This document shows, piece after piece, positions 576 through 26,291 of a stretch of DNA of 41,456 nucleotides (the stretch's first letter is position 1; each line of letters begins with the position of its first letter). A program made the translations under genes and the position numbers. Below the pieces are notes generated by a model. That model made no database searches. It was not told where the DNA came from and worked only from the letters and a program-made list of their open reading frames with translations. Origin of the DNA: a virus. The DNA lies in the IMG/VR virus record IMGVR_UViG_3300030108_002937, positions 1-41,456 of that record. One strand, 5' to 3'.

Positions 576-941
576 ATGAAACTAATATCAACCCTATGTG
601 TATCCTTTGTATTATTGTTGGCGGCGGCCTTTGTGACGCCTGCAGAAAGTAAAGAGCTCTGCGGATCAGGAATCTGTGTTGTTGAGTTCAACGCAAGCTT
701 CAACTCACAAAACAGTGTGCCATGGATAGAAAGCCTGAACGACTGCGAGACTGCCCGTGTGGACATCGCTACTGCTCCAGATCTTCAGAAGAAGCACAAG
801 ATTGTTGTCGTCCCGACGATTGTTATTTTCAACGAGGGAGAGGAACAGGAAAGGTTTCAGGCGAATATCATGATGACGATGGAGGCAACCATTGACGATG
901 TTCAAGAGGCCGTTGACGACATCATGCTGAATGACTTTTAA
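576..941 (+). CDS. Secreted thioredoxin-fold protein without a CxxC active site
   Basis: 121 residues. The first about 25 residues are a signal peptide (positive MK, hydrophobic core VLLLAAAFV, then TPAES). The rest follows a thioredoxin plan: a strand (ICVVEFNASF), a helix, then VVVPTIVIFNEGEE, in which VPT matches the conserved cis-proline loop before a beta-hairpin. The redox CxxC is absent; the only cysteines near the expected site form CGSGIC. It may be a structural thioredoxin-like domain or use these cysteines for a disulfide. It starts three bases after the previous stop. Its last bases overlap the convergent gene that ends at 938. Confidence 0.6.
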   Translation: MKLISTLCVSFVLLLAAAFVTPAESKELCGSGICVVEFNASFNSQNSVPWIESLNDCETARVDIATAPDLQKKHKIVVVPTIVIFNEGEEQERFQANIMMTMEATIDDVQEAVDDIMLNDF

Positions 942-3594: not shown

Positions 3595-3796
3595 CACTCT
3601 GTTTTTTTATCAGGTCGTAAGTTCTACAATCAAGATCACGAATAGGTTCGATGAAGTTCTTATTGCAGTAATCGTTTATCTTTTTTTGCTGCTCTGCGTT
3701 GTTTGTAACGCACACGTGGGCGGCCTGATACTTTGCGTTTTGCTCAAGAAGCTTGTCTATTTTCATCTTGATTTTTTTGTGGCGATTTGTTTTCAT
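3587..3796 (-). CDS. Small basic hypothetical protein
   Basis: 69 residues from ATG 3796. It is Lys/Asn-rich, starts MKTNRHKKIKMKIDKL, and has three cysteines. It overlaps the start of the metalloprotease gene by a few bases and follows the nuclease gene at 3813 after a 16-base gap, so it belongs to the same leftward operon. No family recognised. Confidence 0.5.
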   Translation of the reverse strand: MKTNRHKKIKMKIDKLLEQNAKYQAAHVCVTNNAEQQKKINDYCNKNFIEPIRDLDCRTYDLIKKQSDV

Positions 3797-13544: not shown

Positions 13545-13696
13545 GTCATGTAGTGTGCGTTGTTCATGTTGATTCCGTGGGTGTCCTCCACCCAAATTTC
13601 GATGTCCTCCGTACCATCAGGGTATGTGAATACGTGAGTCAGTTGTGTGGTGTAGTCGAGGACCACCACTTGATTGGGTCCTAGTGTCATGGTCAT
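13541..13696 (-). CDS. 51-residue hypothetical protein
   Basis: ATG 13696 overlaps the upstream stop (TGA 13693-13695) and its own TGA overlaps the ATG at 13544. The product MTMTLGPNQVVVLDYTTQLT continues with HVFTYPDGTEDIEIWVEDTH, a small beta-rich protein. Double ATGA coupling makes the gene convincing despite its length. Confidence 0.75.
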   Translation of the reverse strand: MTMTLGPNQVVVLDYTTQLTHVFTYPDGTEDIEIWVEDTHGINMNNAHYMT

Positions 13697-13953
13697 GAGT
13701 ACTTGTTTTCGATTCGTTGTTGTGTGTCCTCACAGCAGGAGACCCATGCCTCCATGTTGATGAGGGAGATACGCCCGTCTTCACGGGACTTTTGTGCATC
13801 CTCAAGGATTTGGTCCTTGTGTGAGATGTAGTGGTCAAGACCACGCTGAAGGCAGTCAATGATGACCATCTGCACGAGTGCCCCGTGCTTGTTGTACCCC
13901 GTCATGAGGTGGCTGATGAACTCGTCGTTCGTCATGTCTTTGATGTTGTCCAT
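13693..13953 (-). CDS. Hypothetical protein behind hairpin leader 1
   Basis: 86 residues from ATG 13953. A longer frame from a GTG inside the upstream hairpin loop exists but is rejected, because that GTG is part of the repeat. It contains DCLQRGLDHYISHKDQILED and a C-terminal WVSCCEDTQQRIENKYS. The start carries the leader motif 11 bases upstream. Confidence 0.65.
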   Translation of the reverse strand: MDNIKDMTNDEFISHLMTGYNKHGALVQMVIIDCLQRGLDHYISHKDQILEDAQKSREDGRISLINMEAWVSCCEDTQQRIENKYS

Positions 13954-13985: not shown

Positions 13986-14047
13986 GAGAGGTGTTGTATA
14001 TATCTCTCTTCACTACGTTCAGAGAGAGATATATACTAACACTCTCT
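13986..14047. repeat. Covarying intergenic hairpin 1
   Basis: Arms GAGAG, GTGTT and GTATATATCTCTCT pair with AGAGAGATATATAC, AACAC and CTCTC, leaving single bulged T bases and a 13-base loop TCACTACGTTCAG. The loop is identical in all three copies in this window while stem bases differ in compensating pairs. It lies in the gap between the 14051 and 13953 genes. Confidence 0.85.
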
Positions 14048-14050
14048 AAG

Positions 14051-14263
14051 TCATCGTAGGTCGAACATGGTGTGCTTGAAGGCTTTCTCCAATCGCTCCT
14101 TGTTCGCGCTGTCTGCCTTGAAGTACGCCTCGATTAGCGCACGTTCGAAGCTACCGCAGTTGTTGAGTCGTAGGTAGAGTCGGTCGTACTGACCCACACC
14201 CTCAATCTCGCGGGCTACACCTTCGCTGAAGATGTCGCCGATTTCTCTTGTCTTGTTCTTCAT
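14051..14263 (-). CDS. Hypothetical protein
   Basis: 70 residues, charged and helical (DIFSEGVAREIEGVGQYDRL, LIEAYFKADSANKERLEKAF). It begins six bases after the upstream stop and ends just before hairpin 1. Unknown function. Confidence 0.65.
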   Translation of the reverse strand: MKNKTREIGDIFSEGVAREIEGVGQYDRLYLRLNNCGSFERALIEAYFKADSANKERLEKAFKHTMFDLR

Positions 14264-14269
14264 ATGTCT

Positions 14270-14479
14270 TTAGTTTGGGTTTTGAGAGGGAAGTGTGCTC
14301 CACCACTCAATCTCTTCGTCGTGGAGTCGGAAGCTGTGTGCTTCTTGTAGGTCTTCGTTCCACACGTCGTCCAACCACACTCCGTGGTCGTCGGGTGCCC
14401 CCTGTACATAGGAGGCGCGGTGTCCTGAGTCTTGCAGTGCCTTGACTGCGTTTTCGCATTGTTCTTGTGTCATGTTCAT
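14270..14479 (-). CDS. Hypothetical tryptophan-rich acidic protein
   Basis: 69 residues from ATG 14479, which overlaps the upstream stop as ATGA; a second ATG two codons on is an alternative. A Cys/helix N-terminus is followed by GVWLDDVWNEDLQEAHSFRL and IEWWSTLPSQ. No family recognised. Confidence 0.65.
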   Translation of the reverse strand: MNMTQEQCENAVKALQDSGHRASYVQGAPDDHGVWLDDVWNEDLQEAHSFRLHDEEIEWWSTLPSQNPN

Positions 14480-14790
14480 AGGTCAATGATTACGCCCTTG
14501 GATTCAAGGGCATCGGTTATAAATTCAGGGAGTTCGAAGCATCCGTCGTACCCCGTAAGGCGTACATCTCCGTTGTCATCCCAGTACACTTCGAGGATTC
14601 CGCTTGCATAGAAGCGGTCACCCGCTGTGTCAACGTCGTAGGTTTCGTACCACCCACCATACCTGTGGTTGGGGTCAACCTCGATGGTGGTGTCCATCTC
14701 CACATTCGTGGCGCGGTCAAGGTCCACGTCGTATGCCGTGGTCATAGCTACGTGTGGTAGCGTGGTCTTGAAGTCGTGCTTGAATTTCAT
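14476..14790 (-). CDS. Hypothetical beta-rich acidic protein
   Basis: 104 residues from ATG 14790, which overlaps the upstream stop (ATGA). Asp/Tyr-rich strands such as YGGWYETYDVDTAGDRFYAS and ILEVYWDDNGDVRLTGYDG suggest a small beta fold. No family recognised. A much longer open frame upstream is the shadow of the next gene and hairpin 2. Confidence 0.7.
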   Translation of the reverse strand: MKFKHDFKTTLPHVAMTTAYDVDLDRATNVEMDTTIEVDPNHRYGGWYETYDVDTAGDRFYASGILEVYWDDNGDVRLTGYDGCFELPEFITDALESKGVIIDL

Positions 14791-15032
14791 TCTGAAAATA
14801 GTTCGTTCTCGGCTGCTATCGCGACGTTGGCGTGGACATCCAAGAGGTTGATGATTTGCTGAACTGTGTCGGGGCTGACGTTGGGTACATTTGAGATGAG
14901 AGAGGCATAGCCTTGCACATCCTTTGGCACCTTTCGTGCGGCTCGATTGAGCACAGCGAGATTCTTTCCAAAGTGGAAGTCGTTGAGGTAGAGCACCGCC
15001 GCACCGACGGGGCGTTTGAAGAAGTTGTCCAT
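14787..15032 (-). CDS. Hypothetical protein behind hairpin leader 2
   Basis: 81 residues from ATG 15032 with the leader motif 11 bases upstream and hairpin 2 behind it. Contains VGAAVLYLNDFHFGKNLAVL and VSPDTVQQIINLLDVHANVA. No recognised family. Confidence 0.7.
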   Translation of the reverse strand: MDNFFKRPVGAAVLYLNDFHFGKNLAVLNRAARKVPKDVQGYASLISNVPNVSPDTVQQIINLLDVHANVAIAAENELFSE

Positions 15033-15043
15033 TGAGATTGGAT

Positions 15044-15054
15044 TTGAAGTTTGA
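15044..15054 (-). promoter_or_regulatory. Leader motif copy 3 (TCAAACTTCAA)
   Basis: Exact copy, 11 bases upstream of ATG 15032. Confidence 0.55.
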
Positions 15055-15058
15055 CATT

Positions 15059-15122
15059 GAGAGGTCTTGTATATATACTCTCTTCACTACGTTCAGAGAG
15101 AGTATATATACTAAGACTCTCT
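15059..15122. repeat. Covarying intergenic hairpin 2
   Basis: Same design as hairpin 1 with the identical 13-base loop. The stem GTATATATACTCTCT/AGAGAGTATATATAC is one pair longer, and GTCTT/AAGAC replaces GTGTT/AACAC, a C-G for G-C exchange that keeps pairing. It lies between the genes ending at 15124 and starting at 15032. Confidence 0.85.
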
Positions 15123-15123
15123 A

Positions 15124-15294
15124 TTAAGGATGGTCGGTTGTTCCGATACCAAATTCAGTGAGGTCCATCCATACGTCCTCGTCGTAGGCGTCAGCGACCA
15201 AGGCTACTGCCTCGCGGTCGTCACTGCCTGAGAACTGAACGTATGCGATGACAAGTTCGTCGTGGCAAAGACCACGGAAGGGGTTGTAGTTCAT
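15124..15294 (-). CDS. 56-residue acidic hypothetical protein
   Basis: ATG 15294 to TAA 15124-15126. The product starts MNYNPFRGLCHDELVIAYVQ, then FSGSDDREAVALVADAYDED, ending VWMDLTEFGIGTTDHP. It fills the 190-base gap between hairpin 2 and the 15316 gene. The sequence is a credible alpha/beta small domain. The leader motif lies one base upstream of the ATG. Confidence 0.7.
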   Translation of the reverse strand: MNYNPFRGLCHDELVIAYVQFSGSDDREAVALVADAYDEDVWMDLTEFGIGTTDHP

Positions 15295-15295
15295 G

Positions 15296-15306
15296 TTGAA
15301 GTTTGA
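15296..15306 (-). promoter_or_regulatory. Leader motif copy 4 (TCAAACTTCAA)
   Basis: Exact copy but only one base from the ATG at 15294, unlike the 11-12 base spacing elsewhere. Confidence 0.4.
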
Positions 15307-15315
15307 AGGGTTAAT

Positions 15316-15543
15316 TTACTGATTATCAAAGGGTTTCACTGACTTGATTCTGTGTCCGTCGGGCACAAGGTCGAGTGCCCGTTGCTTGGCATGGTCGAGT
15401 GACCACGCCTTGAACACGATGGCGTCCCAATCGTCGCGGTCATAGCCACGATAGTACACCATTCGATACTCGTCGGTTGGTACCGACTTTGGGAGCCAAT
15501 CGCTCATCGTGCCCCGCTTGGGGTAGCGTTCCCACACGTTCAT
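15316..15543 (-). CDS. Hypothetical protein
   Basis: 75 residues; ATG 15543 overlaps the upstream stop (ATGA). The core YRMVYYRGYDRDDWDAIVFK followed by AWSLDHAKQRALDLVPDGH looks like a compact beta-alpha-beta domain. No family recognised. Confidence 0.7.
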   Translation of the reverse strand: MNVWERYPKRGTMSDWLPKSVPTDEYRMVYYRGYDRDDWDAIVFKAWSLDHAKQRALDLVPDGHRIKSVKPFDNQ

Positions 15544-15938
15544 GTGAGTTTGATTTCGCAGTCGTTATCGAAGTCCCAAATGGCCTCCTCTCCGCGCTCC
15601 CTGCCCAAGGCGATGGCCTCTTCGCGGTCGAACACGATGTCGGCTACCTCGATGTAGACGTAGTTGTCGTCGTTTATCCACGCACCGATTACTTGCATGG
15701 TCGTGTCGGGCTGACGCTCCATGAACTCAATGTTGAGTTTCATGATTTTTTCGAAGTTGTTGTAAGACAACAAGTCGTTGTCCACCATCTCGACGGAGTC
15801 CGTCGCGCCTCCCACTGCATACGCCTCCCGTGTGGGGTTGTAGCCTTTGAGGTTCTTGTCAACGGAGAATCCGTTGCCGCTCTGCACGTTGAAGTAGCGC
15901 AGAGCCATAAGTTCAGGATATGACATATTTTTGCTCAT
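15540..15938 (-). CDS. Hypothetical protein
   Basis: 132 residues from ATG 15938 with the leader motif 12 bases upstream. An alpha/beta protein with NNFEKIMKLNIEFMERQPDT and VYIEVADIVFDREEAIALGR. The second half resembles small cytosolic phage proteins of unknown role. A longer frame upstream runs through a hairpin and is rejected. Confidence 0.7.
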   Translation of the reverse strand: MSKNMSYPELMALRYFNVQSGNGFSVDKNLKGYNPTREAYAVGGATDSVEMVDNDLLSYNNFEKIMKLNIEFMERQPDTTMQVIGAWINDDNYVYIEVADIVFDREEAIALGRERGEEAIWDFDNDCEIKLT

Positions 15939-15950
15939 CTTTGATGAATT

Positions 15951-15961
15951 TTGAAGTTTGA
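15951..15961 (-). promoter_or_regulatory. Leader motif copy 5 (TCAAACTTCAA)
   Basis: Exact copy, 12 bases upstream of ATG 15938. Confidence 0.55.
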
Positions 15962-15966
15962 CATAG

Positions 15967-15999
15967 ACACCACTTCGTGGTGTTTCGCGCATTCAGCGC
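15967..15999. repeat. Two adjacent short perfect hairpins
   Basis: ACACCAC-TTC-GTGGTGT (15967-15983) and GCGC-ATTCA-GCGC (15987-15999) lie back to back upstream of the 15938 start. The first has the GAA/TTC triloop typical of the hairpin-dense region further right. Confidence 0.7.
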
Positions 16000-16024
16000 T
16001 CATCAGTATGCCTGGGAGTTGACA

Positions 16025-16171
16025 TTACATGTCAACCAAGTCTTCCAAGGTCATCTGCTCTAAGCAGTTGAGTTCGTCCCACGTCGCTGTGGCACGCACT
16101 GCGTCGAATGAGAGGTGAGAGTCGAGGAGGTCAGCGATAAGCTGACGGCGGATGCTGTTGTGCATGTCCAT
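16025..16171 (-). CDS. 48-residue hypothetical protein behind hairpin leader 3
   Basis: From ATG 16171: MDMHNSIRRQLIADLLDSHL then an acidic helix ending LEQMTLEDLVDM. The upstream frame extension begins at a GTG inside hairpin 3 and is rejected. Two overlapping leader motif copies precede it. Unknown function. Confidence 0.6.
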   Translation of the reverse strand: MDMHNSIRRQLIADLLDSHLSFDAVRATATWDELNCLEQMTLEDLVDM

Positions 16172-16175
16172 GGTG

Positions 16176-16193
16176 TTGAAGTTTGAAGTTTGA
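16176..16193 (-). promoter_or_regulatory. Leader motif copy 6, doubled
   Basis: Two overlapping TCAAACTTCAA copies (16176-16186 and 16183-16193), 4 and 11 bases upstream of ATG 16171; the distal one has the standard spacing. Confidence 0.55.
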
Positions 16194-16209
16194 AAAAAAT
16201 TGTTGTCTA

Positions 16210-16272
16210 AGAGTGTCTTGTATATCTCTCTCTTCACTACGTTCAGAGAGAGAGATATACTAAGACTCTCTA
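16210..16272. repeat. Covarying intergenic hairpin 3
   Basis: Stem GTATATCTCTCTCT/AGAGAGAGATATAC with the same 13-base loop and GTCTT/AAGAC outer helix. Relative to copy 1, TATA pairs are replaced by CTCT pairs on both arms at once. It lies between the 16278 and 16171 genes. Confidence 0.85.
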
Positions 16273-16277
16273 AGGGG

Positions 16278-16529
16278 TTAGACTGGAAGTCGGTCTTGGA
16301 AGATGGTAATCTTCACCGCGCCGTCCGTAGCGTGGAAGAGGTGGTCTTTCAGGATTTGTAATCCTGCCAACATCTCTCCTGTTTCTCCGTCCTCTTCGTC
16401 ATCGACGAAGGTGTCGAGAATGTCAATGGCTTCGCTGAAAGCGACAGCGTCGAGCTCCGCGTCCTGCGGGTAGGAAGCGGCAATGTAGCTGATGTCTTCG
16501 ACATCAAGGTCAGAAACTAAGTAGTTCAT
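16278..16529 (-). CDS. Hypothetical acidic protein with hairpin-rich coding sequence
   Basis: 83 residues from ATG 16529: MNYLVSDLDVEDISYIAASY, then acidic and helical with DTFVDDEEDGETGEML. Four perfect hairpins of 6-7 pairs lie inside the gene (16299-16314, 16350-16366, 16394-16410, 16490-16506), and a fifth (16525-16539) covers the start codon. No family recognised. Confidence 0.65.
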   Translation of the reverse strand: MNYLVSDLDVEDISYIAASYPQDAELDAVAFSEAIDILDTFVDDEEDGETGEMLAGLQILKDHLFHATDGAVKITIFQDRLPV

Positions 16530-16572
16530 TTTCAATGAATTAAGGGTTAACAATTAAACTAATCCTAAAGGA

Positions 16573-17091
16573 TTAGAAGGGAAGACCATCGTATCCAACT
16601 TCGTTGGAAGGAGAGCCGAGAGTCGTAGACTCCATGTGCACAGCGAGCACTGCGGTGAGAGCCTCGATTTTAGCTTCCAAGGAAGCTACCTTGTCGGCAG
16701 TGTCGGCCTGAGCTTTCAGCTCAGCCTTGCGAGCTGCTCTCTGAGCAGCTCCAGTAGCTTCGCTGACTGCTTTGGCTGATGCCGCAGCTTCCTTAACGGA
16801 AGCTGTCTTAGCCTTCTTCGAAGGCTTGACAGGACCAACTTCGTTGGTCTTGAGTGCCGCTCTGTCTTGGCGGTCTGCCACCTTCTGTGAAGGTGTTCTC
16901 TTCGTCGTCTTACGACGACGCTTCTTCGACTTAGCCTTCTTCGAAGGCTTGTCTTTCACCTCTTCCAAGGAAGAGATGAACTCAACAGCTTCTGAAAGAA
17001 GCTGCAAAGCCAGAGCTTTACGCTCTGCTGTTGGACGGAAAGTGGCTTGGTTGACTGCCTTACGGCAGTCGGAGAACTGGAAGTTATTCAT
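16573..17091 (-). CDS. Lysine/alanine-rich histone H1-like protein with SSB-like C-terminal tip
   Basis: 172 residues from ATG 17091, with the leader motif 12 bases upstream. The N-terminal about 45 residues are a helical domain (PTAERKALALQLLSEAVEFI). Then comes a very basic segment (KDKPSKKAKSKKRRRKTTKR, with KPSKKAK repeated at about 89), an Ala/Lys-rich linker and a C-terminal helix, ending GYDGLPF. The basic low-complexity middle suggests DNA or RNA binding, and the acidic-to-PF end resembles an SSB interaction tip. The coding sequence contains about 16 perfect hairpins, one covering the start codon. Confidence 0.7.
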   Translation of the reverse strand: MNNFQFSDCRKAVNQATFRPTAERKALALQLLSEAVEFISSLEEVKDKPSKKAKSKKRRRKTTKRTPSQKVADRQDRAALKTNEVGPVKPSKKAKTASVKEAAASAKAVSEATGAAQRAARKAELKAQADTADKVASLEAKIEALTAVLAVHMESTTLGSPSNEVGYDGLPF

Positions 17092-17103
17092 CGTAGATGA
17101 AGT

Positions 17104-17114
17104 TTGAAGTTTGA
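17104..17114 (-). promoter_or_regulatory. Leader motif copy 7 (TCAAACTTCAA)
   Basis: Exact copy, 12 bases upstream of ATG 17091, with a partial second copy at 17098-17107. Confidence 0.55.
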
Positions 17115-17133
17115 CTTCCCAAAGGGCCGACTC

Positions 17134-17361
17134 TCAAAGCCCTTTAGGAGGGAATAGAAAGAAGAGAGAGTCATAGACTCCTCTCTCTCTTCTTCCTATC
17201 CCTCTAGTTTTCCACTGCTTCATTCCTCTACGAAGTAGAGTAATGGTTGAGGCCAAATCTCGGTAGTCGCAGGAAGCCAACAAGTTGGCTACGCAGGCTA
17301 CGGCGCTGCACACCGCTCCGCCAAGGGTTTTGCTGTTGGTATTTGTATTGCTAATAGCCAT
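17134..17361 (-). CDS. Possible small gene in the hairpin region
   Basis: 75 residues from ATG 17361 (a longer version starts at 17397): MAISNTNTNSKTLGGAVCSA, then VACVANLLASCDYRDLASTI and a basic TLLRRGMKQWKTRGIGRRER. The middle reads like a helical protein, but the end degenerates into translated hairpin sequence and no leader motif precedes it. It would be the first leftward gene if real; otherwise 17092-17907 is wholly non-coding. Confidence 0.3.
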   Translation of the reverse strand: MAISNTNTNSKTLGGAVCSAVACVANLLASCDYRDLASTITLLRRGMKQWKTRGIGRRERGVYDSLFFLFPPKGL

Positions 17362-17788
17362 AGCTATTAGGATTGTCAACAACATCGGGGTGGTCAATGG
17401 CTACTCAAGTTGGAGTAAGACTCCAAGCTGTTGGACCAAAGGGGGTGATTGTCAACGCATTATGCCCAGGAACAACGCGTTGCCCTTTCAGCAGTTGATG
17501 CTAAAGCATCAGTTTAAGGCTTCAGGTCTAAAGACCTGTAGCACAGCAAGTTGGGGTCAAAACTTAGGGTCGATTAGCTTGCTAATCGTTGGGGAGGGGG
17601 TCTCAGAAAACGAGTTTTCTGTCAGGCTGCTGTCCTCACACGATACATATAATCCCCACCCTACGTAGATCTGATCGTTTTTTTCGCGCTTGACTCCCTT
17701 CAACCAAAAAACATCAGGCCAGGCAGTAACAAGCTAACTATCTGTAAGGCAGTACATTGCGCAGATTGGTTAAAGTATTGCTAGACTC

Positions 17789-17819
17789 TTGACTTTTAAA
17801 AAAAAAGGTTATAACTTTG
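17789..17819 (+). promoter_or_regulatory. Rightward late promoter, Bacteroidota type
   Basis: TTGAC at 17789-17793 and TAACTTTG at 17812-17819 match the TTTG / TAnnTTTG consensus; TTG and the -7 box are separated by 20 bases and an A9 tract. It would give a leader of about 85 bases ahead of the ATG at 17908. Confidence 0.6.
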
Positions 17820-18533: not shown

Positions 18534-20039
18534 ATGTCTAAGCAAAAAAGAAGCAGAGCCCTCCTAAGAAACCTTAGGAAGCAGGCGCGTAAGGGTACGC
18601 TGAGTGCCCGAGAGAAGCAACAGCTTGCTTCACAAGAGAAGAAGTTTAGAAAGGCCAGGAAGTCTACGGCCAAGGGTGTCGGTGCAGGGCTTGCAGGTGC
18701 TGCGGCACTGCTTTCTACCACCGCTGGTCAGCAGCTTATGAGTGGCGCAAAGGATTTCATGGGTCGCGCTTCAGATAGAAGGGATGCTAGAGCAGACGGA
18801 AGGTTGGATAGAAAGGTTGCTAGAGCAGACGAGCGTAGCAAGAAGGAGAAGCAGAAGCTTGAGGAGTTGGCTAGACAGAGAGAAGAGGAGACGGGTGTGC
18901 GTATGGCTGAGGGTGCAGATCGCGCCGAAGAGGCAGAGAGAGAAGAGGACAGACAGAAACTTATAGCTCGTGCCGATGAGTTTGAGAGACAGGAGGCCCA
19001 GGATAGAGAACGAGTCACAAGACCTGTCACTGACGTAGACTTTGGCATGGGTGCGGAAGGTCCTTCACGCGAGGAGTTTGATAGACTTCAGATGGACCGC
19101 TCTATGGATTTTTCAGATCCCATCGCCATGGGTGCTGCTAGAGCGTCATCTAGAGACGCAGCTGCAGATTTGGGCAGGGCTGAGTTTGATAGGGCTCAAA
19201 GAATTCTTGCTGGTGGGCTAACAGGTGACTCTAGGGTTGACTTTGGATTCGACATTGAGGATCAACCTAAAGAGCAAGACTTCCCCAATGAGTTCTTCCC
19301 TCTGGATCAAGTTTATGAATCTAGAGAGCGGTCTCGTCGTGAGCGACCAGGATTCAACCCAGATGATAAGGGGCCTATGGGAGACGGGGGTAAGGTCGGT
19401 GTAAGCCATCTTCTAGACTACCTTGAGGGACATGAGGGGCCTATGAGTGAAAAAGATTACAAGGAGCAGAAGGACATACTGTTCAGTATGTACCGTAAAG
19501 GCCACATGGGTATTGATGAATACAACAAAAACCTTGAGAAGCTCAACAGCATGGGATTTACGAAGTCCCAGGAGGACGGAGGTAAGGTAGAGTATGGTAT
19601 AGGGGGTGCCATTATGAACATTGCTGGTAATGCGCTACAGGGCAAAAAATTTGGAGAGGGTCTTTTCGAAGGGACTCTTAAGTCTTTGACCCCTTATGGT
19701 ACGGTCGCAGGCGCAGGCAACTTAGCTCAGGGGCTTGGTCAAAAATTTGATAAGCCTGGACTTGAAAAAATTGGAGGTGCGGTTGAGCAAGGAGCCAATC
19801 TTGTTGGAGGCATTAACGCTCAATTAGCGGGATCAATCTTAGGAAAGATGGGGGTTCCAGGCGGCAATCAGATGGGACAAGCTGTTGCTGGCCTTTATGG
19901 AGGCCAGGGAGGTGGCGGTATCGCTGGACTTCTCGGTGGTCTGTCTGCCGAGAAGGGCATGAAGGTCCAGCAGATGAGACAGGGTGGACGCGCAGCCGAC
20001 CTTAAGAAAATGATTGCCAAGAAATACGGATTTAGATAA
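18534..20039 (+). CDS. Large internal virion / DNA-ejection-like protein
   Basis: 501 residues. A very basic N-terminus (1-45) is followed by a short hydrophobic AAALLSTTAG stretch, a long charged helical region (80-165) rich in R, E and A, an acidic middle, then EDGGKVEYGIGGA and a Gly/Ala-rich C-terminus (about 355-480) with GSILGKMGVPGG and GGGGIAGLLGGLS that could insert in membranes. Basic, helical, Gly-rich proteins of this kind act as internal or ejection proteins in podo-type phages. Stop and next start overlap (TAATG). Confidence 0.6.
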   Translation: MSKQKRSRALLRNLRKQARKGTLSAREKQQLASQEKKFRKARKSTAKGVGAGLAGAAALLSTTAGQQLMSGAKDFMGRASDRRDARADGRLDRKVARADERSKKEKQKLEELARQREEETGVRMAEGADRAEEAEREEDRQKLIARADEFERQEAQDRERVTRPVTDVDFGMGAEGPSREEFDRLQMDRSMDFSDPIAMGAARASSRDAAADLGRAEFDRAQRILAGGLTGDSRVDFGFDIEDQPKEQDFPNEFFPLDQVYESRERSRRERPGFNPDDKGPMGDGGKVGVSHLLDYLEGHEGPMSEKDYKEQKDILFSMYRKGHMGIDEYNKNLEKLNSMGFTKSQEDGGKVEYGIGGAIMNIAGNALQGKKFGEGLFEGTLKSLTPYGTVAGAGNLAQGLGQKFDKPGLEKIGGAVEQGANLVGGINAQLAGSILGKMGVPGGNQMGQAVAGLYGGQGGGGIAGLLGGLSAEKGMKVQQMRQGGRAADLKKMIAKKYGFR

Positions 20040-20506
20040 TGGCTACACTTGTATCAACCATAACAGAGAAGGTAACGCTCAACGGTAAGGAGAGAGGTTC
20101 TGAGATCTCGCAAGAGATCGCATCAGTGACTCAGGTACTGCATCGTATCGTAACCTGCCCCGCCAGTGCGGACACCACCGTGGCTAACTTCCACGCGGCA
20201 GCCAACACGTCAGACAACTCTCTCGACGTGGAGGATGTCAAATACATCAGGGTGACGAACCTTGATGCAAGCAACCCCATCAACCTCTCGCTTCAGATAG
20301 ACGCGGGGGAGGACGATAGTGCAGCTGACGAGTCCGTAACCATTCTTGTAGAGGCGGGACGTAGCTTCATCATGGGCGCGCCTTCTGACGGATTGGCCGT
20401 CAGGGACGACGCCGCCACAATCGAGACAACACTTCACAACTTAGAATCAATACTCGTTGATCCAGGATCTAATGCAGTCAGCGTAGAAATCTTTATAGCA
20501 AGCTAA
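20039..20506 (+). CDS. Small beta-rich virion protein
   Basis: 155 residues. Alternating strands such as VKYIRVTNLDASNPINLSLQ and SVTILVEAGRSFIMGAPSDG resemble the small beta-sandwich proteins at 35296 and 35691, which also have a Y-I-(R/K)-N segment followed by a Gly-anchored hydrophobic strand. It is probably a capsid- or tail-decorating protein. It is coupled to the preceding gene. Confidence 0.6.
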   Translation: MATLVSTITEKVTLNGKERGSEISQEIASVTQVLHRIVTCPASADTTVANFHAAANTSDNSLDVEDVKYIRVTNLDASNPINLSLQIDAGEDDSAADESVTILVEAGRSFIMGAPSDGLAVRDDAATIETTLHNLESILVDPGSNAVSVEIFIAS

Positions 20507-20507
20507 A

Positions 20508-21206
20508 ATGTATCACAAGAGAAAGAATATGGCTATGGGTGGCATGAATATGCCACGAGTCATGAAAAAAAATGAAATGCCAGGAGGCGGTCATGTCGAA
20601 TACGGCATGGGCGGTAAAATGGACTACGGCATGGGTGGCAAGATGGAGATGGGTCACGGTGGTGACATGGCCAGAGCCATCAAGATCTATCTCATGAAGA
20701 AGGGCGGCAAGACCTTTCCCGATCTCACAGGTGACGGAAAGGTAACCTTTGCCGATATCCTCAAGGGTAGAAAGGTGAAACTAAAGAAGAAGTCTCAAGC
20801 TTACGGAGGTAAGGTGATGCAAGAGGGTGGAGAGACTCCAGGCCTTGATGTAAAGACTCGTAGAACTCAGGTCGGATTTGACGTTGAGCGTCAAGAACCG
20901 ATCATGGATGACGCCTCTCAGATCTACATTGACGGTCTGCCCGTGAGTGCCAAAGAGGCTTTGGCCTTTATGAAAGAAAGAGCCGAAGGCAGGGAGGGTC
21001 AGGTGTCATCTAGTCTCGGTGATGCAATGAAAGCAGCCACCATGAGGAGAATGGACGAGATGCAGGGTGGTAGACAGTACATGGGGCCTGGCATGTATCG
21101 TCTGACTGCGGAGCAAGAGCTTGACAGGGATCAAAGATCTGCTGGCGTTGAGGCCCTCATGAAAAGGCTTGGGTCGTATAGTAGCCGAGGCAAAAGAGAT
21201 TTCTGA
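20508..21206 (+). CDS. GGK-repeat virion-associated protein with calcium-loop motif
   Basis: 232 residues. The Met/Gly-rich N-terminus has repeated (M)GGK(M) and (E/D)YGMGG units. Residues 72-83, DLTGDGKVTFAD, form an EF-hand/dockerin-like calcium loop followed by ILKGRKV and a basic stretch. The C-terminal half is helical and charged. GGK units also occur in the 18534, 25838, 34611, 34789 and 35058 products, so they may be a shared virion signal. It ends before a terminator. Confidence 0.6.
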   Translation: MYHKRKNMAMGGMNMPRVMKKNEMPGGGHVEYGMGGKMDYGMGGKMEMGHGGDMARAIKIYLMKKGGKTFPDLTGDGKVTFADILKGRKVKLKKKSQAYGGKVMQEGGETPGLDVKTRRTQVGFDVERQEPIMDDASQIYIDGLPVSAKEALAFMKERAEGREGQVSSSLGDAMKAATMRRMDEMQGGRQYMGPGMYRLTAEQELDRDQRSAGVEALMKRLGSYSSRGKRDF

Positions 21207-21225
21207 TCTAAAATAAAGGTCAAAA

Positions 21226-21247
21226 AAAAGCCCCGAAAGGGGCTTTT
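21226..21247. terminator. Bidirectional rho-independent terminator
   Basis: AAAAGCCCC-GAAA-GGGGCTTTT, 9 pairs with GAAA loop and A/T runs on both sides. It ends the rightward 17908-21206 transcript and the leftward 21251 gene. Confidence 0.9.
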
Positions 21248-21250
21248 CTC

Positions 21251-21604
21251 TTACTGAATGGATAGGTTTGTTAGGCTTCCATTTAGTGATGATGTAACCC
21301 ATGATGTACATCCATCTACTTTGGGGCCTGGGTTAATTACGAAGCTGTCGATAATTTCGCTGTTGTTAGTTACGGTGATGATGAACGTAGAGCTTTGGGC
21401 CGTGATATCCATCATAGAGAATCTGTCTACCGTGACGGGCTGAACCGCTTGGTAGCAAATGTCATTGAAGATCTGATCTACCTCGTAAGTAAACACGTCC
21501 TCCCACATATTTACTGGTTGGACGATGAATGTAGAAGCACACTGTCCGAAAGAAGACAGAGAGATCATTGTGCATAAGGTTGCCACCATCATTGCATTTT
21601 TCAT
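21251..21604 (-). CDS. Small secreted protein on the opposite strand (moron candidate)
   Basis: 117 residues. Signal peptide MKNAMMVATLCTMISLSSFG then Q-C; the FGQ/C pattern matches the two secreted proteins at 938-3594. The mature part is a beta-rich Thr/Ser/Asn domain with SSTFIITVTNNSEIIDSFVI and a C-terminal WVTSSLNGS. No sorting domain. Single gene, opposite to its surroundings, bounded by its own terminator, which is the usual layout of a phage moron. Confidence 0.65.
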   Translation of the reverse strand: MKNAMMVATLCTMISLSSFGQCASTFIVQPVNMWEDVFTYEVDQIFNDICYQAVQPVTVDRFSMMDITAQSSTFIITVTNNSEIIDSFVINPGPKVDGCTSWVTSSLNGSLTNLSIQ

Positions 21605-21789
21605 TGCGATATGTTTTAATTGAATTTTCGTAGATTTGCTGTAGTCGCTGATCTCATTCTATGGACAATTTCTCATACCTGCAAATTTTGGAGTGTAAAA
21701 ATTCCTTAACGTCTTGAAGAAGTTTTACTTCAACCCCAGGAAAAAAAGAAAAGTCTCCAGTGTTGAGAACGAAAAACGACGGATAAACA

Positions 21790-22269
21790 ATGAAGCTGTC
21801 AAAAAATCTATCGCTCGCCGAGGTGACAAAAAGCACCACGGCTAAACGACTCGGCATAAATAATGTTCCAGATGATGAATGGGTTATCGAAAATCTCAAG
21901 TCGATTGCAGAGCACATATTTCAACCTCTTAGGAATGCTTTCGGGTGCCCTATATACGTGTCGTCAGGCTATCGTAGCCCTGAGCTCAACCGTGCTATCG
22001 GCGGTTCGCTTCGTAGTCAGCACATGGAAGGGAGAGCACTCGACCTTGATGCAGACGTATACGGAAAGTGTACAAACTCTGAGATCTTCAACTGGATACG
22101 AGAGAATGTTGAGTTTGATCAGATGGTGTGGGAGTTTGGTGATTCAGACAATCCTGATTGGGTTCACGTCAGTTATGTGTCTGATGGCGTTAATCGTGGT
22201 CGCTGCCTCAAGGCTTGTCGTGACGATGAGGGAAAGGTCTACTATGAAGTAATGTTTAAATCTCTTTAA
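21790..22269 (+). CDS. M15-family peptidase (endolysin candidate)
   Basis: 159 residues. SSGYRSPELNRAIGGSLRSQ with H78, GRALDLDAD with D85, and WVHVS with H126 form the zinc site of M15A/D-Ala-D-Ala carboxypeptidase-like enzymes; E115 in VWEFGD is the likely general base. The family cleaves peptidoglycan peptides and is common as phage endolysin. No signal peptide, so release would need a holin; the 288-572 membrane protein is one candidate elsewhere. Confidence 0.85.
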   Translation: MKLSKNLSLAEVTKSTTAKRLGINNVPDDEWVIENLKSIAEHIFQPLRNAFGCPIYVSSGYRSPELNRAIGGSLRSQHMEGRALDLDADVYGKCTNSEIFNWIRENVEFDQMVWEFGDSDNPDWVHVSYVSDGVNRGRCLKACRDDEGKVYYEVMFKSL

Positions 22270-22276
22270 TATAGTC

Positions 22277-22714
22277 ATGTTAGGATTAGGTACACCAATA
22301 CAGCTTAGTGCGCAGTCAGCAGTAGAATCAGAACGCGCGGGTACTGCATGGACTGAGACATCACACAGCGGCGGAACAACCCCAAACATAAGGCTTTCTG
22401 GAACCCCTACTACTACTGTCATAACATTATTCATTGACGACACAAATGATTGGAGTGGGGATGCGACTGATTACAGCTTAACTTCCGTTGAAGTAAATAA
22501 TACCACAAGCGGTGCTTCTTCTACAGGCAACACCTTTACCTTTAGTACTCAACATGGGGTAGGTAGTGATGGTGAGAGAGAAATACGGACAAGTCAAATA
22601 AGGATCAGCGACTTATTTGCTGCGGGACGAGGTCAAACTATCACAATAACTGGCAACTTGACCAGAACTGGATACGCTTCCCCGCAACTGACTGCGTCAT
22701 TAACTTACTCATAA
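22277..22714 (+). CDS. Small beta-rich virion or fibre-associated protein
   Basis: 145 residues, Thr/Ser-rich strands (TVITLFIDDTNDWSGDATDY, GQTITITGNLTRTGYASPQL). Composition is like phage tail or head ornaments. No family recognised. Seven bases after the endolysin. Confidence 0.6.
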   Translation: MLGLGTPIQLSAQSAVESERAGTAWTETSHSGGTTPNIRLSGTPTTTVITLFIDDTNDWSGDATDYSLTSVEVNNTTSGASSTGNTFTFSTQHGVGSDGEREIRTSQIRISDLFAAGRGQTITITGNLTRTGYASPQLTASLTYS

Positions 22715-22718
22715 TTAT

Positions 22719-23141
22719 TCAGTTACTAAGCATAGAGTAGAATCTCTGAACAAGGAGCCTGGCCTTCTGCGTTATAGCGTATCTCACCCTGTAGTTGTAC
22801 TTCGTCTCGTCTCTAAATAGATGATCCTCGTATGTGTCTGAGGGGGTGAGTTTGTCAAAGTGCTTGTATATGTACCCCTTTTTTACCAGCGGGTATATCA
22901 CCCTGTTGGATAGGTTTGTCTTGTTCATCTCTAATGCCGTAGACGCGTAGTCTATTGTGAAGAACTGTAGGTCGTATGCCCATAGTAAGAACTCTATGTG
23001 ACTGAATCTTAAGCCGCTAGATTCTACCATCAGCCTCTTCGCCCTCTTGAAATTCTTGAGATAGTTCCTCTTGATATATTTGCTATCTTGTAGAGCAAAG
23101 TCACGGAACATTCTCTTTTTTGAGATTTTGCTTTTTGGCAT
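22719..23141 (-). CDS. Winged-helix (MarR-like) DNA-binding regulator
   Basis: 140 residues from ATG 23141; a GTG two codons upstream is less likely. Basic N-terminus. HIEFLLWAYDLQFFTIDYAS, then TNLSNRVIYPLVKKGYIYKH, then YRVRYAITQKARLLVQRFY match the helix-HTH-wing-helix order of MarR-type proteins. It is divergent from the 23166 gene across a 24-base gap, so it may control its own promoter and the rightward genes. Confidence 0.65.
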   Translation of the reverse strand: MPKSKISKKRMFRDFALQDSKYIKRNYLKNFKRAKRLMVESSGLRFSHIEFLLWAYDLQFFTIDYASTALEMNKTNLSNRVIYPLVKKGYIYKHFDKLTPSDTYEDHLFRDETKYNYRVRYAITQKARLLVQRFYSMLSN

Positions 23142-23165
23142 TTTCACTTAATTAACCCACAAGAT

Positions 23166-23450
23166 ATGGAAGAAGACGATTTTTTGATGGAGGTGCAGCG
23201 TCTTTTCATGGAGTACGAGGCGCTTTTAGATCAGTACGAAATGAGAGACCGAGTTCTTTCTATCTTTGTGGCTGGTGTTTTGGAGCCCATCGACGAGAGC
23301 ATGTCTAACATGAGAGCTATGTATAACTACATTCTCGACAATCGCGAAGAGCTCGATACGCTAATTGATTTTATAGACAAGAGCTACGAAGAGAGGAGGG
23401 GTCCAGACCTAGACAACCTCTTAGACGGGCTCGGTATTTCATTGAACTGA
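23166..23450 (+). CDS. Hypothetical acidic helical protein
   Basis: 94 residues, strongly helical and acidic (LFMEYEALLDQYEMRDRVLS, NREELDTLIDFIDKSYEERR). It starts a rightward run; the stop overlaps the next start (TGATG). No family recognised. Confidence 0.65.
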   Translation: MEEDDFLMEVQRLFMEYEALLDQYEMRDRVLSIFVAGVLEPIDESMSNMRAMYNYILDNREELDTLIDFIDKSYEERRGPDLDNLLDGLGISLN

Positions 23451-23686
23451 TGAATGGAGTTATTAGAAAGATTATAATCGGCAGAGACCCGAAGGACGCC
23501 ATGGCATACTATGTCGGTATGCGTGCAGGCTCTGGAGAGGTCAGCGCCATAGTGCTTGATGACGAACATCTTTACAAATACGGAGTGAAGCGGTACCTGG
23601 TTTACATACAGAATGACGGGGGTCAGATGCTATGGAAGTCTGTAGACTGCATGCCGTGTATACTAGAATACGACCTAAACTTTTAA
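23450..23686 (+). CDS. Hypothetical small protein
   Basis: 78 residues, compact alpha/beta pattern (VIRKIIIGRDPKDAMAYYVG, VKRYLVYIQNDGGQMLWKSV). Followed after one base by the next gene. Function unknown. Confidence 0.65.
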   Translation: MNGVIRKIIIGRDPKDAMAYYVGMRAGSGEVSAIVLDDEHLYKYGVKRYLVYIQNDGGQMLWKSVDCMPCILEYDLNF

Positions 23687-23687
23687 G

Positions 23688-24404
23688 ATGGCTAGGTACA
23701 AGAAAAGAAAAACAAGAGGCGGGACTAAGGTTATGCCACCCAGCACAATATGGGAGTGGTATGCTCCAGAAACTATATCCGCTTCGGTGTCATTTGATTC
23801 TAGCCCCTATTCTTCGAACGAAGATGTTCAGCTTGACCTCCTTTCAGTGCTTCAGCAATTTCTAGCAGGCCCCTTTGGAATTTCTTGCAACTTCCCCATA
23901 TACCCCAAGGTGTCTTTCGTGGGGACATTTGTTAGGACCAACATACAGGAATTTGTTCAGTTTGCAGGAGCAGACCTACAAGACATACCTCAGCAGCTTT
24001 CTGATAGCTGTAGACTAGTGAGCCAGAAGAATTCCTACATAGGGTGTGGTCCACCTACAGGCAATCTGAGTCAACCTGAAATCAATATGTTCATATTTGA
24101 CGACAGGCTTAAGATAGCCTCTATAGTAGATCTGGGGGACGGGACCGTTCTAGTTGTCTTTCAGGTCAGCTCGGTTAGAGCTCAGGACATATTTACGAAA
24201 AGCAACACTCAAGACCCTATAGCTTTTCCGTTTTTCCCGTATGACACTAACGTTAATCCACAGCCTGGCGTTCTTGTGGTTGGAGGTGCTTATCTTAACA
24301 ACGGTAAGATGAAGATTGGCGACTTTAGGGCACACTATATACCAGGTAATAAGTACACCCCAAATCCTCCCTCTGCCTTTAATGTGGACTTTAGCATACT
24401 GTAA
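23688..24404 (+). CDS. Probable structural protein
   Basis: 238 residues; basic N-terminus (ARYKKRKTRGG) then a beta-rich body with LVVFQVSSVRAQDIF and VLVVGGAYLNNGKMKIGDFR. No enzyme motif. It lies in the virion module two bases before a Gly-rich protein gene. Confidence 0.6.
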   Translation: MARYKKRKTRGGTKVMPPSTIWEWYAPETISASVSFDSSPYSSNEDVQLDLLSVLQQFLAGPFGISCNFPIYPKVSFVGTFVRTNIQEFVQFAGADLQDIPQQLSDSCRLVSQKNSYIGCGPPTGNLSQPEINMFIFDDRLKIASIVDLGDGTVLVVFQVSSVRAQDIFTKSNTQDPIAFPFFPYDTNVNPQPGVLVVGGAYLNNGKMKIGDFRAHYIPGNKYTPNPPSAFNVDFSIL

Positions 24405-24406
24405 AG

Positions 24407-24736
24407 ATGGTTAGAGAGAATTTGGTGACCGACGGCACAGAGTTTGCAAGACCAGACGGCACCCCGTACTCTGGTCCGTATCATGTGCACATAAGTCAGG
24501 GGGCAATGGTGGGAGGTAGACACGTCTCATCTCCTCACGATATCCTTGTACCGCTTACAGCAGAGGCTGCTCAAAAGATCGTGTCGATACAGATTTCTTT
24601 AAAAAATGAAGAATTTGTTGCAAACGCCCCACGTGTTTCTGTATCTTCGTCAAGGGGCGGAGGTGGAGGCGGATACTCCAGCGGAGGTGGCGGTGGCGGT
24701 GGAGGTGGATCCTCCAGCCCTTCCCCTAGCTACTAA
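24407..24736 (+). CDS. Small virion-associated protein with YxGxYHxH motif and Gly-rich tail
   Basis: 109 residues. GTPYSGPYHVHISQGAMVGG with following RHVSSPHDIL is a motif I have seen in small marine-phage structural proteins (YSG-x-YH-x-H then GA-x-H). The C-terminal 30 residues are poly-Gly/Ser, encoded by GGAGG-rich repeats at 24655-24710. Exact role unknown. Confidence 0.6.
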   Translation: MVRENLVTDGTEFARPDGTPYSGPYHVHISQGAMVGGRHVSSPHDILVPLTAEAAQKIVSIQISLKNEEFVANAPRVSVSSSRGGGGGGYSSGGGGGGGGGSSSPSPSY

Positions 24737-24745
24737 TTAAATAAA

Positions 24746-25351
24746 ATGAAAACCTTCAATTTCTTTGTCGTAAAGCTTGAAAAGCTCATCAACGACACCA
24801 TCACCATGTCCAACGGAACCGAGCTGTACATAGACAGCAAGTGGGACGAAATGGGCGAGTTCAACTACAGGGTTACAGAGGGACCTGTGGTTGCATCTCC
24901 TTTTAAATACGATACAGGCGTAGAGCCTGGGGACACTCTTTATTTTCACCACCTGGTGGTTATGCAGGGTGGTCAAGTTCTCACGGGAGATGATGACCAC
25001 TACATCGTCAAGTACAACGAGGAGGCGCTCAACAATCAAGCCATAGCATACAAGAGCAAGAAGGATGGAAAGATCAGGCCCCTTACAGGGTGGTCGCTCT
25101 TGGAGCCCGTGGATCAGGAAGAACTAAAAACAAAGTCAGATGTTATCGAAGTTGTCGAACTTGAAGAGAAGCTACCTACAAAGGGTCGTGTCGCTTTTAC
25201 GTCTAACGGGATTGAAGATCTTGGACTGAAAGTGGGGGACGTTGTCGGATTCAAAGAAAACCGAGACTACCGCATCAAGATAGACGGTAAGGAGTACTAC
25301 AGAACTAGAACACAAGATCTGCTATATGTCGAAGAAGTTCACAACAGTTGA
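24746..25351 (+). CDS. Tandem GroES-like co-chaperonin-fold protein
   Basis: 201 residues with two similar halves. The first has GPVVASPFKYDTGVEPGDTL then YFHHLVVMQGGQV; the second has GRVAFTSNGIEDLGLKVGDV then VGFKENRDYRIKIDGKEYYR. Both follow the GroES plan of a capping strand, a G-D-x-V/L turn and a final strand ending in LLYVEEV. Phage co-chaperonins assist capsid folding with host GroEL, which suits its place ahead of the capsid genes. The doubled domain is unusual. Confidence 0.6.
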   Translation: MKTFNFFVVKLEKLINDTITMSNGTELYIDSKWDEMGEFNYRVTEGPVVASPFKYDTGVEPGDTLYFHHLVVMQGGQVLTGDDDHYIVKYNEEALNNQAIAYKSKKDGKIRPLTGWSLLEPVDQEELKTKSDVIEVVELEEKLPTKGRVAFTSNGIEDLGLKVGDVVGFKENRDYRIKIDGKEYYRTRTQDLLYVEEVHNS

Positions 25352-25613
25352 TGCCGCCCGAAGACTCTTAGAGAGTATGGAGGATGCCATCAACAACATG
25401 ATAGATGAGATCAAGAAGCCAGTGGACCCCGAGATCAACGGAAGCGCACGTAAGGCAGAGTTGCAGTCTATCAAGCAGACGGCTACAGATTGCAAGGAAC
25501 TCATAGTCGAAAGACAGAGGTTGGAACAAATGATCAAAGACTTACAGGCTAATGGAGGGATCGAAGAAACAAAAGACTACAGCGGAGGTTTCGCTGAAAG
25601 ATTCTCTAAATGA
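25326..25613 (+). CDS. Hypothetical helical protein
   Basis: 95 residues, overlapping the GroES-like gene by 26 bases. Charged helices (DAARRLLESMEDAINNMIDE, ERQRLEQMIKDLQANGG) suggest a coiled-coil hairpin. Possibly a partner of its upstream neighbour. Confidence 0.6.
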   Translation: MSKKFTTVDAARRLLESMEDAINNMIDEIKKPVDPEINGSARKAELQSIKQTATDCKELIVERQRLEQMIKDLQANGGIEETKDYSGGFAERFSK

Positions 25614-25695
25614 TTGGAAAAAAATAGTATGGCAATACAATAGAACAGATTACAAGTTCTGGGAGGATTCCTGGAACGATGAGTTCGAGGACTGA
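25552..25695 (+). CDS. 47-residue Trp-rich acidic protein in overlapping frame
   Basis: ATG 25552 to TGA 25693-25695. Product begins MEGSKKQKTTAEVSLKDSLN then DWKKIVWQYNRTDYKFWEDS and ends WNDEFED. It overlaps the previous gene by 62 bases and fills the gap before the tRNA. The aromatic/acidic ending is not what random sequence gives, but the gene is short. Confidence 0.5.
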   Translation: MEGSKKQKTTAEVSLKDSLNDWKKIVWQYNRTDYKFWEDSWNDEFED

Positions 25696-25743
25696 GTTGT
25701 TGGTTTTCGTCAGGCGGCCCTCTACGCAAATGGGCTTATCAAC

Positions 25744-25817
25744 TGGGGCGTAGTTCAGTTGGTTAGAGCGTCTGTCTTATACACAGGAAGTCGCGGGTTC
25801 AAGTCCCGCCGCCCCAA
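25744..25817 (+). tRNA. tRNA-Ile (anticodon UAU)
   Basis: Complete cloverleaf: acceptor TGGGGCG/CGCCCCA, D-arm GTTC...GAGC, anticodon stem TCTGT/ACAGG with loop CTTATAC (UAU at 34-36), T-arm GCGGG-TTCAAGT-CCCGC. It reads AUA, which the late genes use often. No CCA is encoded. Confidence 0.95.
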
Positions 25818-25825
25818 CAATTTAT

Positions 25826-25833
25826 TATATTTG
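25826..25833 (+). promoter_or_regulatory. TATATTTG promoter element
   Basis: Nine bases after the tRNA-Ile end and four bases before the ATG at 25838; TAnnTTTG match with almost no leader. Confidence 0.5.
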
Positions 25834-25837
25834 TACC

Positions 25838-26065
25838 ATGAAGCTCAAAAAGCGAGACTACGATAAGGAGTACAAGAAGTACGGAAAGGGCGGAAAAGCC
25901 AAAAAGTACAGGGCTTCTTTGAATAAGGTAAACCGCCGTAAGGGTACATACGGAAACGGTGACGGTCTCGACGAATCGCACATAGGTACGTCTGACAAGA
26001 CAACCCCTCGTCCAGAATCTCAAAACAGGGCCAACAACAGGCCCAGGCGTAGGCGGAGCAGGTAA
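25838..26065 (+). CDS. Very basic small protein, HNH-like remnant
   Basis: 75 residues. RDYDKEYKKYGKGGKAKKYR, then LNKVNRRKGTYGNGDGLDES and HI resemble the small phage HNH-type proteins with K-Y-x-x-E-Y, basic helix and a GDG-x-D-x-x-H centre, though the second zinc/metal half is replaced by an Arg/Pro/Asn tail. It may be a DNA-binding virion or packaging protein next to terminase; nuclease activity is doubtful. Flanked by two tRNA genes. Confidence 0.6.
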   Translation: MKLKKRDYDKEYKKYGKGGKAKKYRASLNKVNRRKGTYGNGDGLDESHIGTSDKTTPRPESQNRANNRPRRRRSR

Positions 26066-26071
26066 CCCCAT

Positions 26072-26145
26072 GCGCTCGTAGCTCAGCTGGATAGAGCATC
26101 TGCCTTCTAAGCAGACGGTCACAGGTTCGAATCCTGTCGGGCGTA
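26072..26145 (+). tRNA. tRNA-Arg (anticodon UCU)
   Basis: Acceptor GCGCTCG/CGGGCGT (two G-U pairs), D-arm GCTC...GAGC, anticodon stem TCTGC/GCAGA with loop CTTCTAA (UCU), T-arm ACAGG-TTCGAAT-CCTGT. It reads AGA, frequent in the phage genes. Confidence 0.95.
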
Positions 26146-26159
26146 CTAAATTCAATACA

Positions 26160-26291
26160 ATGGCTAAAATCCAAGTAAACAACTACAAGAAGAAGCGTGT
26201 AAGACGCAAGGGTGTTCACGCTAAGACGAAGCAGTCTAAGAACAAGGGTTCGGTAAACTACAAGAAGTCTTATGCTGGTCAAGGTAGATGA
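26160..26291 (+). CDS. 43-residue basic protein preceding terminase
   Basis: ATG 26160 to TGA 26289-26291: MAKIQVNNYKKKRVRRKGVH then AKTKQSKNKGSVNYKKSYAG and QGR. The pattern R-x-GVHAKT-x-x-SK and a YKK-x-Y-x-GQGR end looks like a conserved small basic phage protein. It overlaps the terminase start by 20 bases, so the two are coupled. Possibly packaging- or head-associated. Confidence 0.75.
   Translation: MAKIQVNNYKKKRVRRKGVHAKTKQSKNKGSVNYKKSYAGQGR

Follow-up and report, generated by a model that had tools for sequence, protein, structure and literature searches.

Perfect DNA-type hairpins in the early region of a phage from IMG/VR and their recurrence in unrelated phages

Results

Hairpins between and within the leftward early genes

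The viral DNA analysed here (IMG/VR record IMGVR_UViG_3300030108_002937, positions 1 to 41,456; this whole 41,456-nt stretch is referred to as the window) carries a leftward set of early genes from about 17.1 kb downwards and a rightward set that begins at 17.9 kb. Three long hairpins with a common cap stand between the leftward genes, and a fourth long hairpin, together with an island densely filled with short perfect hairpins, lies at the upstream end of the set. The original prediction had described the three capped hairpins and had missed both the fourth (17140–17206) and the island (15860–17621). The features are as follows, the gene boundaries being based on simple open-reading-frame rules:

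13986–14046, minus strand: long capped hairpin 1, between the leftward genes 14051–14263 and 13693–13953; cap TTCACTACGTTCA at 14009–14021 (sense strand TGAACGTAGTGAA)
15056–15124, minus strand: long capped hairpin 2, between the leftward genes 15124–15294 and 14787–15032; cap at 15083–15095
About 16206–16276, minus strand: long capped hairpin 3, between the leftward genes 16278–16529 and 16025–16171; cap at 16233–16245
17140–17206, minus strand: fourth long hairpin, upstream of the first leftward gene; inner part GAGTC-ATA-GACTC, with another loop
16573–17091, minus strand: first leftward early gene, encoding a basic protein of 172 aa without Pfam match; carries 14 hairpins
15860–17621, no strand assigned: hairpin island, 33 short perfect hairpins with stems of 6–9 bp and loops of 3–5 nt, in coding and non-coding DNA

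Each capped hairpin comprises 24–28 pairs, with a single bulged base separating a GTATATA part from a GTxTT part, and folding with RNA parameters gives energies of about -29 to -35 kcal/mol. The loop TCACTACGTTCAG occurs exactly three times in the window, in these three hairpins, and perfect 12-bp arms around a loop of 9–15 nt were found four times, compared with 0–1 in each of 40 Markov-1 resamplings. The original description, namely three hairpins of about 25 bp with a common 13-nt loop and stems that differ among the copies in pairs, was thereby confirmed in the window. The stop codon of the leftward gene upstream lies within about 6 nt of the start of each hairpin, and 24–35 nt separate the end of the hairpin from the next start codon. 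A U-run follows at none of the three sites, which supports the earlier view that they are not plain terminators.

Conservation in related phages

Scanning of IMG/VR for TTCACTACGTTCAGA revealed about 25 related-phage loci, most of them metagenomic fragments, with 1–3 hairpins each (one record has as many as five) and a spacing of mostly 1.0–1.3 kb. The gene-order table demonstrated that the hairpins occupy fixed sites, i.e. between gene cluster c3 and the c0 region, between c2/c4 and c9, between c6 and c12, and once more above c0. The sites of hairpins 1, 2 and 3 are all kept in relatives. The loop, invariant within the window as originally claimed, is however not fixed across relatives, since TTCATAAATGAA or TTCACTTCGTTCA was found instead of TTCACTACGTTCA at the same junctions; TTCATAAATGAA replaces it at the site of hairpin 2 in L120 and L028, and the cap is swapped at the site of hairpin 3 in L028, L499, L121 and L027. 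Read on the sense strand, TTCATAAATGAA is TTCA-TTTA-TGAA, with TTTA as a tetraloop. A bulge is retained throughout but its side varies: the extra base is on one arm in most copies and on the opposite arm in L053, L103 and L105. The inner part of the fourth hairpin is GAATTC-ATA-GAATTC or GAAACC-TAAA-GGTTTC in relatives. Absence of further copies and of conserved pairing had been set beforehand as evidence against a selected structure; instead, many copies and a strong conservation of pairing were found, and the proposal of a selected structure is supported. The contig of L027 is an inverted self-duplication whose two strands bear identical hairpins; it probably arose as an error of assembly.

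The island is found at the same place in all relatives tested (including L496, L501, L503, L007, L120 and L497). At its peak, 23 hairpins fall in the densest 1080 bp, compared with a mean of 2.9 per 1080 bp over the whole sequence, and perfect 7-bp stems reach 11.65 per kb inside islands and 0.29 per kb outside. In the first early gene, hairpins are located at 13 codon positions conserved among 16 relatives, 161 of the 208 cells of this alignment being perfect, and the stems are swapped wholesale from one relative to another (e.g. CACCTTC-ACA-GAAGGTG versus CAGCAA-CGAG-TTGCTG). For the named structures, changes on both sides were counted in 30 of 99 pairs; shuffles gave 19.3 and none of 500 reached 30, while slid structures gave 9–17. 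The 14 hairpins of the gene compare with 1.9 in shuffles that keep both the protein and the codon counts (maximum 5, n = 300), and the same behaviour was seen in four relatives. Protein and codon usage therefore account for only a small part of the hairpins in the coding sequence.

The perfect pairing, the few intermediates and the wholesale replacement of stems at one place could also be the work of palindromes that perfect themselves without any function, templated (quasipalindrome) correction copying one arm to the other in a region that is often single-stranded, so that the hairpins stay perfect while they drift. Stable DNA loops would nucleate such templated copying. This explanation appears rather unlikely, because the codon positions of the hairpins are fixed in 16 relatives despite entirely different stems, the junctions, the bulge and the capped form of the long hairpins are kept, and the cap at one site can be either of two different stable forms. 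It would likewise imply single-stranded exposure and, with mRNA structure, is the main competitor of the explanation preferred below.

Recurrence in unrelated phages

Among 272 other viral loci, a non-random sample because they were fetched by cap-like patterns, islands (at least 8 hairpins per kb) are present in six of the seven loci with long-stem caps and in 8 of the remaining 265 (Fisher p = 4e-8); several of the six are closely related (L045/L050/L096 and L051/L080), and the p-value therefore overstates the evidence. Three of those eight island loci (L023, L075 and L082) bear longer capped stems as well. No protein is shared at 1e-5 between the window family and L023, L082, L093, L050, L173 or L075, and the terminase or head genes, where present among these unrelated loci, belong to different PHROGs. 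Capped hairpins at intervals of about 1.2 kb accompany the island in unrelated phages. In the cultured HMO-2011, whose record is circular, an island occupies 53.5–55.3 kb and the long capped hairpins stand at 54110, 17 and 1217, with intervals of 1189 and 1200 bp. One gene of this island contains 8 hairpins versus 0.62 in shuffles, and island hairpins of HMO-2011 are common to L082. The cap variants (GAACGAAGTGA, GAACAACGTGA, GAACTTTAGTGA, GATACTTTAGTGA and GAACATAGTGA) retain the pattern GA-(N)-AC...GT-GA.

The cap as a putative minihairpin

It is proposed that the sense strand of the cap, TGAACGTAGTGAA, folds into a T-A pair, tandem sheared G-A mismatches, an A-T pair, a C-G pair and a GTA triloop, with positions 1-13, 4-10 and 5-9 paired around the GNA triloop. 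Flanking stems of at least 4 bp in unrelated viral loci accompany 76 of 86 A-T caps (the 86 include the window family) and 35 of 101 G-C caps, versus 0 of 49 and 1 of 48 single mutants; pooled, the paired cap forms have such stems in 111 of 187 cases and the single changes in 1 of 97. The same pairs were examined in 179 copies of the bacterial repeat described below. Position 4-10 is AT in 134, GC in 40 and another combination in 5; position 5-9 is CG in 168, TA in 6 and another in 5; position 1-13 is TA in 170, CG in 6 and TG in 3. Since 103 of the 179 copies are the query sequence itself, only the variants are informative.

The cap has the closing C-G pair around GNA and the complementary next pair of a GNA minihairpin, and positions 4-10 and 5-9 vary in pairs. 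Under the ViennaRNA DNA parameters, which omit tandem G-A, no fold was obtained for the isolated cap. GNA minihairpins of the d(GCGAAGC) type are extraordinarily stable in DNA, and the phage cap resembles them in its C-GNA-G triloop on a short stem; it differs in the added tandem G-A mismatch and in being embedded in long natural stems, its stability being a prediction. A binding site for a DNA-binding protein, one of the roles originally suggested, is a possible reading; the caps resemble a DNA minihairpin.

DNA or messenger RNA

A count of defects by codon position was too small by itself to decide between RNA and DNA, and was repeated over all alignment cells: in the alignment of the c0 gene, G-U accounts for 47 cells and A-C for 96. 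Island stems with a single wobble have G-U on the messenger RNA (mRNA) in 12 cases and on the other strand in 17, without sense bias. GNA is found in 48 of 131 island triloops on the sense strand (expected 6.4%, p = 4e-24) and in 27 of 131 on the other strand, while the tetraloops, with expected numbers in parentheses, include 10 TTTA (0.2), 11 CTTG (0.4), 7 GNRA (2.1) and 2 UUCG (0.2). Furthermore, the sense-strand folds of 23 distinct long hairpins contain no G-U pair. These loop and wobble statistics fit DNA hairpins that prefer the sense strand, the choice of DNA over RNA resting on the GNA and TTTA loops and on the lack of a G-U preference over A-C.

The RNase III processing sites of the original prediction, or 3'-protecting elements of the early mRNA with the short hairpins stiffening the transcript, are accordingly considered unlikely. 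The long hairpins do lie directly behind stop codons in a leftward operon, their predicted sense-strand folds of 24–28 pairs would suit RNase III, whose sites comprise about two turns of double-stranded RNA, and the sense strand is the one preferred by both the GNA loops and the folded caps. In phage T7, the early RNase III sites R0.3 to R1.3 are likewise long hairpins that separate early genes at intervals of about 1 kb. The hairpins described here differ from these in their perfect pairing, their lack of G-U and their DNA-type caps; no island was seen in the part of T7 that was read. In addition, GNA triloops and TTTA are far more prominent than GNRA or UUCG. An obligatory RNA signal was dropped as a reading of the cap, since unrelated loci carry the cap in either orientation relative to genes and replication-initiator genes carry it reversed. 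The PeSL cassettes of T4-type phages are likewise stem-loops between early genes; no promoter was found beside the window hairpins, however, and their positions do not shuffle.

Early promoters for the virion RNA polymerase of phage N4 are DNA hairpins with a GNA-like triloop, located upstream of early genes on the template strand. A few long hairpins upstream of early genes, the GNA triloop and a giant virion gene (2618 aa) in the relative G001 recall that system, but hairpin promoters of this kind are very improbable here: the stems are several times longer, cap and GNA loops are on the sense, i.e. non-template, strand, and the giant proteins have neither single-subunit polymerase motifs nor a match to solved polymerases. 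Scanning the large genes of G001 with PHROGs, Pfam and PDB sequences gave no motif or match for a virion RNA polymerase, a weak test as it considers the sequence only. The 2618-aa virion-type protein of G001 (IMGVR_UViG_3300020414_001395, 18929–26783) has an LPD38 domain near its C-terminus.

The cap in bacterial repeats and replication-initiator genes

The cap also forms part of bacterial repeats that resemble repetitive extragenic palindromic (REP) sequences, TGTCATTC-TGAACGTAGTGAA-GAATCT, found in Bacteroidota, Ignavibacteria, Planctomycetota, Nitrospina, cyanobacteria and Clostridia. There are 7–117 copies per genome in the six genomes counted, and the reversed pattern occurs in none. The repeat AGATTCTTCRCTNCGYTCAGAATGACA (L371–L490, G013–G018) covers at least six phyla, with 117 copies in one Calothrix genome, and its loop variants covary. 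The tag TGTC of the repeat matches the CGTC/TGTC-tagged REP superfamily (Di Nocera et al. 2013, PMC3733652), some members of which lie within replication genes (PMC3733652). The apical 13 nt are identical and the stems are paired in both; among the bacterial copies, which were retrieved by means of TTCACTACGTTCA, this sequence is the most frequent apex. In contrast to these dispersed multicopy repeats with stems of 8–9 bp, the window has three copies with stems of 24–28 bp at fixed junctions, adjoining a hairpin island and lacking a terminal GTC tag in the flanks of the window family. REP-like elements spreading among intergenic sites, to which the identical cap might point and which agree with the mobile hairpins of the original prediction, are hardly credible and were dropped after the gene-order table, since all relatives carry untagged hairpins with other stems at the same syntenic gene junctions.

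In phages of other lineages the cap is found inside replication-initiator genes (DUF1376, Phage_rep_O and several PHROG initiator families), where it encodes SSLRSE in a protein linker and is flanked by perfect stems that vary (L005, L008, L012, L013, L020, L035, L098 and about 40 other viral loci). Short tandem microrepeats, e.g. CCAACACCAACACC and GAGAAGAGAAGA, lie upstream at these loci. The cap also occurs in intergenic long hairpins of other phages.

Gene content and database searches

The window encodes a primase/helicase, an exonuclease, a portal protein and a terminase, the latter with 41–49% identity to terminases of Flavobacterium, Cellulophaga and related podoviruses. Just past the island lies one further element, assigned by match to the consensus:

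17789–17819, plus strand: promoter-like site of the rightward operon, TTG-N20-TAACTTTG, Bacteroidota type

An Rfam scan of the window gave two tRNAs and nothing else, and blastn of the hairpin region against INPHARED gave no match. Matches from short-query blastn were at chance level, those to Pectobacterium and crAssphage having neither cap nor island. Stretches at 12.6–12.9 kb that look like tRNAs were not called by ARAGORN. Elsewhere in the window, genes at 938–3597 (minus strand) have CHU_C (type IX secretion signal) and M43 peptidase domains, an unusual phage cargo, and degenerate repeats of 75–84 nt occupy 32900–33930 within an open reading frame of 1036 aa (31191–34301).

Discussion

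The hairpins are characterized by perfect pairing, paired change, an excess over codon shuffles, DNA-type loops, a preference for the sense strand and recurrence in unrelated phages. Selection or maintenance of perfect DNA-type hairpins near the promoter of early operons is thereby shown, and in phages independent of one another.

The explanation tentatively preferred, at somewhat less than an even chance, is that the early region is exposed as single-stranded DNA and that the hairpins hold it open or act as landing sites. At some point during infection, the sense strand of the promoter-proximal part of the early operon would be single-stranded, with an R-loop or a replication origin as the most probable setting. 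Early transcription leaves this strand as the non-template strand, and a co-directional fork would use it as lagging-strand template; it is thus the strand that either setting would expose. The dense short hairpins would keep this strand folded and out of the duplex, and the GA-capped long hairpins, repeated about every 1.1 kb, would be a stronger form of the same element, at which replication proteins may land or priming may take place. Lambda-type origins lie in initiator genes, and the presence of the cap in such genes points to an origin or single-stranded setting. An analogy for the proposed mode of action is offered by single-strand initiation (ssi) hairpins of G4/phiX174 and of plasmids, which are strand-specific and recruit primase or primosome on exposed single-stranded DNA; dozens of hairpins and their overlap with coding sequence have no known counterpart there.

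Several observations weigh against single-stranded exposure. The exposure in vivo, the origin or R-loop setting at this locus and any priming role are what we infer from these patterns. The spacing of about 1.1 kb may merely mirror gene sizes, the sense-strand bias of the loops would also fit mRNA, and the cap in replication-initiator genes is oriented opposite to the reading frame. Furthermore, no island was seen in the parts read of T7, an elemovirus, MW202828, CRP-2, P12053L, a cobavirus and DSL-LC04, and the island-free phages include the nearest cultured relatives of the window phage.

An earlier description of hairpin-packed phage early regions was not found in open papers, which, being limited to open papers, is weak evidence of novelty; the layout is apparently undescribed. 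Quite possibly, though with a probability still short of even, the early DNA of several unrelated phages holds a second, structural code, in which dozens of perfect DNA-type hairpins overlap the protein code and GA-capped long hairpins recur at intervals of about 1 kb, with a common single-strand mechanism at an origin or R-loop. A code of DNA structure that constrains protein-coding genes would mislead analyses of codon usage and selection. The common cap links bacterial REP-like repeats, phage replication-initiator genes and phage early regions, and provides a testable case for the DNA minihairpin as a recurrent biological part. If the hairpins are functional at the DNA level, their density would mark where the phage genome turns single-stranded, and this would give a handle, from sequence only, on the origins or R-loops of uncultured marine phages, whose replication starts are unknown.

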